Positions 6,366 through 35,152 of a stretch of 52,268 bases of DNA are shown here, piece by piece (position 1 is the stretch's first letter; each line of letters opens with the position of its first letter). The position numbers were made by a program, and so were the translations under genes. Below the pieces are notes generated by a model. That model was not told where the DNA came from, made no database searches, and saw only the letters and a list, made by a program, of their open reading frames with translations. This DNA is from Candidatus Micrarchaeota archaeon CG10_big_fil_rev_8_21_14_0_10_45_29 (lineage in GTDB: Archaea > Micrarchaeota > Micrarchaeia > Anstonellales > Anstonellaceae): positions 44,635 through 96,902 of the forward strand of contig PFCD01000020.1 in the NCBI GenBank assembly GCA_002778455.1, in the 5' to 3' direction.

Positions 6366-7265
6366 TTATTTTGTGAGGCAGTCATGCAATATTGCCATTC
6401 TTACAGGCACCCCGTTTTTTGCCTGCTCAAAATATTTCGCATGCGGCGAGGAATCAATTTCTGCCGGGATTTCATCAAGGCGTGGGAGGGGGTGCAGTAT
6501 TATCATTTCTTTTTTGGCGTTTTCAAGCATTTGCGCATTTAATTGGTATGAGCCGCGCAATGCGCTTGCCTCCTCTTTTGAGGGGAAACGCTCCTCCTGT
6601 ATTCGGGTCATGTAAATAACGTCCGAATTTGAAGTGTCTATTGAATCTGCATAAGAGATTTGCGCGCCAAGCTCTTTTTTTAGTGAATCAAGCATTTTTT
6701 TCTCAAGATGCAATTGCGGCGGGGAGACAAGTGTTATGTTCGCTCCAAATAATACAAGCGGGCGCAGCAGGGAGTGGATGGTGCGCCCGTATTTTAGGTC
6801 GCCCACAAGGCAGACGTTTAGCCCTTCTAATTTTTTTAGCTCTTTTTTTATTGTGTATAAGTCTATTAGCGCCTGCGTTGGATGCTCGTTTGCGCCGTCT
6901 CCGGCGTTTATTACGGGGATATTGCAAATTTCTGACGCCATTTTTGCGGCGCCTTCCTTTGAATGGCGCATTATTATTATGTCGGAGTAGTTTGCAACTA
7001 TTTTTATTGTGTCTTGCAAAGATTCTCCTTTTTTTGAAGAGGAAGTAGTGTGCGAATAATCAAGAGTGCCCATGCCAAGGCGCTGGGCGGCGGCCTGAAA
7101 TGAGAGGTTTGTGCGGGTTGATGGCTCGAAGAAAAGTGTTGAGGCTATTTTTCCCTCATGGATGTTGAATTTGGAGCATAAGTTTTTCTCCATTTCCTGC
7201 GCAAGTGAGAGGTAATGCCCTATATCTTTTTTTTCAAGTGTGTTTAGTGAAATTAGCCCGTGCAT
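6366..7265 (-). CDS. pyrB: Aspartate carbamoyltransferase catalytic subunit
   Basis: 299 residues from ATG 7265, chosen because AGGTG stands 6 bp before it; a GTG at 7274 is the alternative. It joins carbamoyl phosphate and L-aspartate to give carbamoyl-aspartate, the first committed step of pyrimidine synthesis. The carbamoyl-phosphate loop FEPSTRTNLSF is at ~46-56; HPTQALIDLYTI and GDLKYGRTIHSL are the aspartate-side and interdomain motifs; HPLPRLDEI closes the active site. All expected residues are present and the length is normal. The regulatory subunit PyrI, usually the next gene in archaea, is absent here, so allosteric control by CTP is not supported by this locus. No other pyr gene is nearby. 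Confidence 0.96.
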   Translation of the reverse strand: MHGLISLNTLEKKDIGHYLSLAQEMEKNLCSKFNIHEGKIASTLFFEPSTRTNLSFQAAAQRLGMGTLDYSHTTSSSKKGESLQDTIKIVANYSDIIIMRHSKEGAAKMASEICNIPVINAGDGANEHPTQALIDLYTIKKELKKLEGLNVCLVGDLKYGRTIHSLLRPLVLFGANITLVSPPQLHLEKKMLDSLKKELGAQISYADSIDTSNSDVIYMTRIQEERFPSKEEASALRGSYQLNAQMLENAKKEMIILHPLPRLDEIPAEIDSSPHAKYFEQAKNGVPVRMAILHDCLTK

Positions 7266-7398
7266 AACTAGCACCTAAAGATAATGGAAAATGGGTAATA
7301 AAAACAAATGGGTAAGGCTTTCTCGCAATTTTATAAACTTCTATGTGCCAATATAAAACGGGCCCGTAGCTCAGCCCGGTCAGAGCGGCAGTCTTATA

Positions 7399-7437
7399 TG
7401 CGGACTTATCAGAATTGCCTGATATTTGCTCTAGGAG
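7399..7437 (+). other. 39-nt BHB intron 1 of tRNA-Ile
   Basis: Canonical 37/38 site. The core folds as TATCAG with CTGATA closed by AATTGC. Confidence 0.88.
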
Positions 7438-7458
7438 AGCTGTAGGTCGGGGGTCCAA

Positions 7459-7494
7459 TTTTTATTCTGCTTACAGGGCAGAGTAATAGGACAC
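7459..7494 (+). other. 36-nt BHB intron 2 of tRNA-Ile, in the T loop
   Basis: Inserted after T-loop base 58. The intron forms a 9-bp stem (7462-7470 with 7478-7486, one G-U) with loop TTACAGG. Non-canonical site. Confidence 0.88.
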
Positions 7495-7588
7495 ATCCCC
7501 CCGGGCCCATACAACTTATTTTGAGATTAAGGCAGGGTTAATATACTCTAATGACTAATTATTAACACAATATTAGATGTGATTGCCA

Positions 7589-34648: not shown

Positions 34649-35152
34649 TTACACACATTTACTTTTTTTGCCATGTGAAAATTCAGGCCGGCCCGCCAAC
34701 TCCTCTCCCCCGTAATAATGGTCCAGAAAAACCGCCAAGGCCGCGATTTCCGAATGCGGCTGGGCTGTTACAGATACATTAAAATCCGCCAGCTCATAGC
34801 ATTCTGGCGGCACTTTTTGCGAGCCCACCATCACAATACAGTCTTTGCCAGCATCCCTTAATTTTTCCACACTCTCCTGCAAACCCTTCCCATACATTGT
34901 AAGATGCACGAAGCATCCTCCTTTTTCTTTAAACTCTTTTACAAATTTTTCCCAATCCTCGATATATTTTGCCTCGAAATTTCCTCCCCATTCTTTTACA
35001 ACTTTTTTTACCCTCGCAATAAGCTGCCCGTCCTTCTCTCCGCTAAAAATTATCCCTTCGGCGCCAAACGCCCTTGCCACAAGCGCAACATGCATGCTCG
35101 CCCGGTTGTCGCGAAACTTTCGATGCCCGTAGCGCAAAACCCACAAAACCAT
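34649..35152 (-). CDS. tRNA (cytidine(56)-2'-O)-methyltransferase aTrm56
   Basis: 167 residues from ATG 35152; the frame is open to 35272 but the family begins MVLWVLRYGHRKFRDNR. A SPOUT-class enzyme that methylates the ribose of C56 in the T loop of archaeal tRNAs. Motifs: VLRYGHRKFRDNRASMHVAL, AEGIIFSGEKDG, CFVHLTMYGKGLQ, IVMVGSQKVPPECYELADFN and NVSVTAQPHSEIAALAVFLD form the knot. Its target T loop is where tRNA-Ile(UAU) carries an intron, so splicing should come first for that tRNA (inference). Confidence 0.94.
   Translation of the reverse strand: MVLWVLRYGHRKFRDNRASMHVALVARAFGAEGIIFSGEKDGQLIARVKKVVKEWGGNFEAKYIEDWEKFVKEFKEKGGCFVHLTMYGKGLQESVEKLRDAGKDCIVMVGSQKVPPECYELADFNVSVTAQPHSEIAALAVFLDHYYGGEELAGRPEFSHGKKSKCV

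Follow-up and report, generated by a model that had tools for sequence, protein, structure and literature searches.

Within the window, the whole stretch of 52,268 nucleotides analysed here, an isoleucine tRNA gene with the anticodon UAU is interrupted in both its anticodon loop and its T loop. The locus raises the question of whether such a gene can supply a working tRNA, how an insert in the T loop would be removed, and whether the product takes over the reading of AUA codons. Very probably, it is a functional single-copy tRNA-Ile(UAU) gene, its product most likely being the sole AUA reader of the cell, with a precursor carrying bulge-helix-bulge (BHB) introns at positions 37/38 and 58/59. 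This reading is drawn from sequence: the gene anatomy, the BHB cores, their conservation and covariation, the type of splicing endonuclease, the lack of a match to TiaS and the usage of AUA. From these we infer that the gene would be transcribed, that its precursor would be cleaved and ligated in the order of steps set out below, and that the tRNA would be charged and decode AUA.

Gene anatomy and splicing signals

The features on which the argument draws are as follows (window coordinates; strand in brackets):

7330–7338 (+): candidate TATA-like box TTTATAAAC, 22–30 nt 5′ of the tRNA, read from the sequence
7360–7509 (+): tRNA-Ile(UAU) gene with two introns, from all cloverleaf pairs, the spliced fold and orthologues
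7360–7398 (+): exon 1, tRNA positions 1–37, with the anticodon TAT at 7395–7397
7393–7396 with 7432–7435 (+): core of intron 1, with bulges at 7397–7399 and 7436–7438
7399–7437 (+): intron 1, 39 nt, site 37/38, from its pairing and the same site in many parsed relatives
7438–7458 (+): exon 2, tRNA positions 38–58
7453–7456 with 7489–7492 (+): core of intron 2, with bulges at 7457–7459 and 7493–7495
7455 (+): C at tRNA position 55 (normally U), pairing with G7490 of the intron core
7459–7494 (+): intron 2, 36 nt, in the T loop, site 58/59, from pairing, fold and relatives
7462–7486 (+): inner hairpin of intron 2, 11 bp
7495–7509 (+): exon 3, tRNA positions 59–73
34649–35152 (−): aTrm56, 2′-O-methyltransferase of tRNA C56, a family assignment only (PF01994, E=7.1e-40)

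Removal of 7399–7437 and 7459–7494 gives a 75-nt tRNA, the minimum-energy fold of which is a perfect cloverleaf (−34.2 kcal/mol). All mature pairs form (acceptor stem 7/7, D stem 4/4, anticodon stem 5/5 with two G-U, T stem 5/5), and the anticodon loop (CUUAUAA) and the T loop (UCCAAAU) are each restored to seven nucleotides, so that the identity of the tRNA, its two introns with their splice sites and the restored loops, all proposed in an earlier note on this DNA, are borne out. The anticodon sits on an isoleucine-type tRNA body, with orthologues across the phylum; the gene ends at the discriminator A73, CCA being absent. Its position in mid-contig (52.0 kb of 96.9 kb) argues against a contig-end artefact. 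The gene adjoins pyrB (aspartate carbamoyltransferase; 6366–7274, −) on the opposite strand, and the relative L049 has a pyrB-like motif immediately 3′ of tRNA-Ile(UAU) on the same strand; the neighbourhood seems to have been kept but rearranged.

ARAGORN makes no call at 7360–7509 and Rfam gives no match there at the gathering score; a relaxed Rfam scan does detect the gene, scoring it at 17.5 bits, but misplaces its T arm. It is the T-loop intron that causes standard tools to miss the gene.

Both introns have the archaeal BHB arrangement of a 4-bp helix between two 3-nt bulges, with the cut after the second bulge base and seven-nucleotide loops on splicing. The core of intron 1 is CTTA/TAGG with bulges TAT and AGA, and that of intron 2 is GTCC/GGAC with bulges AAT and ACA; both are in the canonical register, and eight of the eight core pairs form. 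The earlier note held that both introns obey the strict BHB rule, which stands for the exact cores and bulges but not for the inner helices. A continuous inner helix next to the bulge (the strict hBHBh′ form) is found in neither intron: intron 1 has a single pair (G7400–C7431) and then mismatches, and intron 2 a single pair (T7460–A7488) and a T-T mismatch before its 11-bp helix. As neither inner helix stacks cleanly on its bulge, 'strict' is a slight overstatement; relaxed forms also occur in the BHB family, so the imperfection bears on that word and not on membership.

The host is a micrarchaeote; in the same-family genomes G002, G014 and G012 this tRNA matches without a difference that of records named 'Candidatus Micrarchaeota archaeon' WY3.bin72, WY5.bin156 and A14_bin-2075. 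The main splicing endonuclease of the host, a protein of 407 residues encoded outside the window, is by its sequence a full-length epsilon-2 enzyme of the ARMAN-2 type. Residues 17–407 align with the ARMAN-2 epsilon-2 enzyme 4FZ2 (E=2.2e-122, 49% identical), and this three-unit single chain keeps the catalytic triad Y236/H251/K282 and the specificity-loop (ASL) residues Y160/K161, as well as K228, R275 and W384 (for the key epsilon-2 residues see PMC12397907). Among archaeal splicing endonucleases it is the epsilon-2 and (alpha-beta)2 types that accept relaxed BHB forms and cut them efficiently at various positions (PMC6379350), and the ARMAN-2 endonuclease cuts its own pre-tRNA-Ile(UAU) in vitro (PMC12397907). 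A second endonuclease-like protein of 202 residues, weakly similar to splicing endonucleases, is encoded at L209:644–1252 (−) on contig C20 of genome G000, and short second copies of this kind are present in many relatives.

T-loop introns among relatives

For a single gene, a few per cent of inserts would show a 4-bp core in a fixed register by chance, which makes it weak evidence on its own; the decision falls to comparison. Outside the window, the sequence covered consisted of stretches around tRNA hits, UAU genes and endonuclease genes. tRNA-Ile(UAU) genes were gathered from relatives and 83 distinct sequences were parsed: the T loop is of the normal seven nucleotides in 50 and holds an intron in 30; L110 and L192, which were mis-parsed, and L088, which has a further variable-region intron, were left out of the 30. 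Since the mismatches allowed in the pattern searches also let in tRNAs such as Arg, Lys and Ile(GAU), UAU and CAU genes were not counted from the search tallies; the matched letters were read instead.

A perfect core at 58/59 or 59/60 is present in 21 of the 30 T-loop-intron genes, against a mean of 1.5 and a maximum of 6 of 30 when the intron interiors were shuffled. The T loop of the window's tRNA (TCCAAAT) has C in place of the near-universal U at position 55, and this exon base covaries with its partner in the intron: C55 faces G in 4/4 genes, the window's included, whilst U55 faces A in 20 genes (one of them, L110, a mis-parse) and G in five (Fisher p=0.005, relatedness not corrected). 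Read from these sequences, the T-loop insert would be a BHB intron, and the comparative set is decisive. C55 also occurs in the tRNA-Ile(UAU) of L169, L179 and L185, and the T loop TCCAAAT in L036, a tRNA-Trp of the window's genome, which thus has this loop in two tRNAs.

T-loop introns in tRNA-Ile(UAU) are spread over about ten families of the Micrarchaeota phylum, and are also found on Woesearchaeota-labelled contigs (L085, L087, L094, L105, L118). About ten other distinct genes have an intron with perfect cores at the position of intron 2; an intron at 58/59 is seen in L051, L077, L078, L144, L153, L155, L082, L173 and L184. The site of intron 1 is common to many parsed relatives, for example L050 and L051. 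Among orthologues of the same family, L049 and L050 have intron 1 and an uninterrupted T loop, and the identical 58/59 site of L051 holds an insert of unrelated sequence, so that on sequence comparison these genes appear to bracket the insertion; close relatives including L067 and L070 also lack the T-loop intron. Further interruptions include apparently two T-arm introns in L065 and L063 (read by eye), an apparent variable-region intron in L088 and L109, two introns in the same-family genome G001, and three (anticodon stem, 37/38 and T loop) in the same-family G005, G007 and G013.

In part of the window's family (L250, L285, L286, L287) an intron lies near 30/31, on the 5′ side of the anticodon stem, which brings the gene to two or three introns and hides tRNA-Ile(UAU) from pattern searches. 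An apparent absence of the UAU tRNA from genus g2, including the 100%-complete G001, was wrong: the gene is there, but its D loop is shorter and a further intron interrupts it near 30/31.

Other tRNAs of the same family have T-loop introns with a GTTC/GAAC core, namely Arg(CCU) and Leu(GAG) and probably Leu(UAA), Tyr and Ser; introns of this type in other isotypes lie at L234, L274, L277, L279 and L280. The expectation that a T-loop intron would be unusual in a DPANN-like genome therefore does not hold, given 30 distinct tRNA-Ile(UAU) genes and other isotypes with one, and given that the broad-specificity epsilon-2 endonuclease is known from the micrarchaeote ARMAN-2 (PMC6379350, PMC12397907). 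Judged by these sequences, the window's gene is typical of its clade and not an oddity. T-loop intron sites known in archaea include 53/54, 56/57 and 59/60 (PMC4090602).

Some introns in this group have a further sequence pattern. The tRNA introns at L035, L042, L043 and L228 in this genome, and at L178 and L230 in relatives, contain a pyrimidine/purine hairpin followed by a short linker and an exact mirror of the purine strand (for example TTTTCTTTTCTT..AAGAAAAGAAAA CCTCGG AAAAGAAAAGAA). Seven such mirrors are perfect over 9–12 nt, and no such site of 9–12 nt was found elsewhere in the window. An intramolecular triple helix of the purine motif would need just such a mirror repeat, yet this is only a lead, since in such simple sequence a direct-repeat match is nearly as good; a literature search found nothing on triple helices in archaeal tRNA introns. 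A looser motif (CCTTTTT..AAAAAG..CCAAAAAAG) is present in the 37/38 intron of tRNA-Ala(UGC) (2606–2721, +), and CTTTT..AAAAG..CCAAAA-like segments in the T-loop introns of L066, L078, L118 and L185 suggest the spread of one intron type.

Decoding of AUA codons

The UAU tRNA would take the place of tRNA-Ile2(CAU) and TiaS, the pair on which archaea usually rely. TiaS (PF08489) is unmatched in all 295 genomes searched in the phylum, of which 96 are at least 90% complete, and controls for the search were positive in four archaea. No tRNA-Ile2(CAU), sought as a GGGC-type acceptor with CTCATAA, was found in 59 relatives by a pattern that misses genes interrupted upstream of the anticodon, and among the Rfam-recovered tRNAs of the window's genome the one with a CAU anticodon appears to be the initiator. 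The search for tiaS and tRNA-Ile(CAU) that the earlier note had proposed thus found neither, in agreement with its inference concerning TiaS. The genome itself (1.146 Mb) is 84.65% complete, so that an absence there is no proof and it is the phylum-wide absence that carries the argument. AUA is the commonest isoleucine codon in the window (439/987, against 347 AUU and 201 AUC), as counted in non-overlapping long mechanical ORFs, some possibly spurious. Taken together, the unmatched TiaS, the lack of tRNA-Ile2(CAU) and the AUA usage indicate that tRNA-Ile(UAU) is probably the sole AUA reader. Elp3 is present in 57/59 relatives, the window's genome included. The rarity of UAU anticodons in archaea, as claimed at the outset, is supported by an earlier survey (2/167 genomes; PMC6000648) but does not extend to this phylum.

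Two other accounts of the locus were weighed, and both appear highly improbable. According to one, the gene is a decaying tRNA-Ile pseudogene that has taken up insertions by chance, and an unseen tRNA-Ile2(CAU) reads AUA; the replacement of U55 and the incompleteness of the genome are compatible with this, but no mature pair is broken, the intron base facing C55 has become the matching G, orthologous UAU genes persist across the phylum, and the searches over 295 genomes for TiaS and 59 for tRNA-Ile2(CAU) were negative. The other accepts the T-loop insertion as real but not as a BHB intron, for example as an expansion that the T arm tolerates or as an error of assembly. The chance level for a single gene and the mismatch beside the bulge of intron 2 would allow it, but the gene is in mid-contig, in the independent relative L051 this site holds another insert, and neither the recurrence of perfect cores at one position (about ten distinct genes; 21/30 against 1.5 shuffled) nor the covariation of base 55 with the intron would be expected. 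We therefore retain the reading of a functional tRNA-Ile(UAU) gene with two BHB introns.

Splicing and maturation of the T arm

Exons of archaeal tRNAs are joined by a ligase, presumably RtcB. For the window's precursor, the broad-specificity epsilon-2 endonuclease would cut both introns, at 37/38 and 58/59, and the ligase would join the exons. Before splicing, GGAC of intron 2 is paired with G53, T54, C55 and C56; the 3′ strand of the T stem would be free to pair one register off the mature stem, an outer helix of G49–G52 with T60 and C61–C63 being possible. With G53 and T-loop bases 54–56 held by the intron, the mature T arm cannot form before intron 2 is removed: intron core and mature T stem are mutually exclusive, and the T stem and the D-loop/T-loop elbow are predicted to form only after excision.

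The earlier note argued that T-loop modification needs the spliced loop, and its placing of aTrm56 at 34649–35152 agrees with the PF01994 match there. In the red alga Cyanidioschyzon merolae, Pus4 is inactive on U55 of pre-tRNA-Ile(UAU) that retains the T-arm intron (PMC9602550). As base 55 of the window's tRNA is C, psi55 is impossible on it, and the ordering could concern Cm56. From the pairing analysis it is plausible, and likely, that splicing would come first and T-loop modification after. A stronger proposal is that the T-loop intron acts as a regulatory checkpoint, in which the BHB form lacks an elbow and modification of the T loop, and perhaps of the wobble base, has to come after splicing in a fixed order. 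The use of G53 and T54–C56 in the precursor core, the failure of Pus4 in C. merolae and the presence of aTrm56 in the window are in its favour, but the intron is dispensable, given the close relatives that lack it (L049, L050, L067, L070 and others), which makes ordered maturation more likely a consequence of the intron than its function; we consider a checkpoint distinctly unlikely. Also tentative, and on balance unlikely, is the more general view in which introns recur, in Micrarchaeota and also in Woesearchaeota, in the T loop of the one tRNA that reads AUA, with splicing gating T-arm folding, C56 methylation and perhaps wobble-U modification.

Highly disrupted tRNAs have been reported for ARMAN-2 (Ca. 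Micrarchaeum acidiphilum). This member of the same phylum has a tRNA-Ile(UAU) with a BHB intron, like the window's (PMC12397907), and the same endonuclease architecture with all key residues; unlike the window's, its pre-tRNA-Ile(UAU) is described with one intron, the available part of that source making no mention of one in the T loop. Replacement of CAU by UAU is already known from Nanoarchaeum equitans and Korarchaeum cryptofilum, where tRNA-Ile2(CAU) is lost and tRNA-Ile3(UAU), intron-bearing in K. cryptofilum, is present, whereas a T-loop intron is not described in the available parts of these sources (PMC8450103, PMC6000648). In the multi-intron tRNAs of Thermoproteales, too, a single tRNA holds several BHB introns, with T-loop sites among them, including 56/57 in Pyrobaculum tRNA-Pro (PMC4090602), but these belong to an unrelated lineage with an (alpha-beta)2 endonuclease. 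The tRNA-Ile(UAU) of C. merolae, the same isoacceptor, has BHB-type introns in the D, anticodon and T arms (PMC9602550), although this is a eukaryote and its T-arm intron is at 53/54, the window's being at 58/59.

Because standard tools miss such genes, the numbers of tRNAs recorded as 'missing' from DPANN genomes are likely wrong, and, with T-loop introns in other isotypes, tRNA gene tallies for the window's family are probably too low. The agmatidine-modified CAU anticodon appears to have been replaced for AUA by an encoded UAU throughout the sampled DPANN phylum (295 genomes), which would make the discrimination of AUA from AUG by a U34 tRNA testable there.
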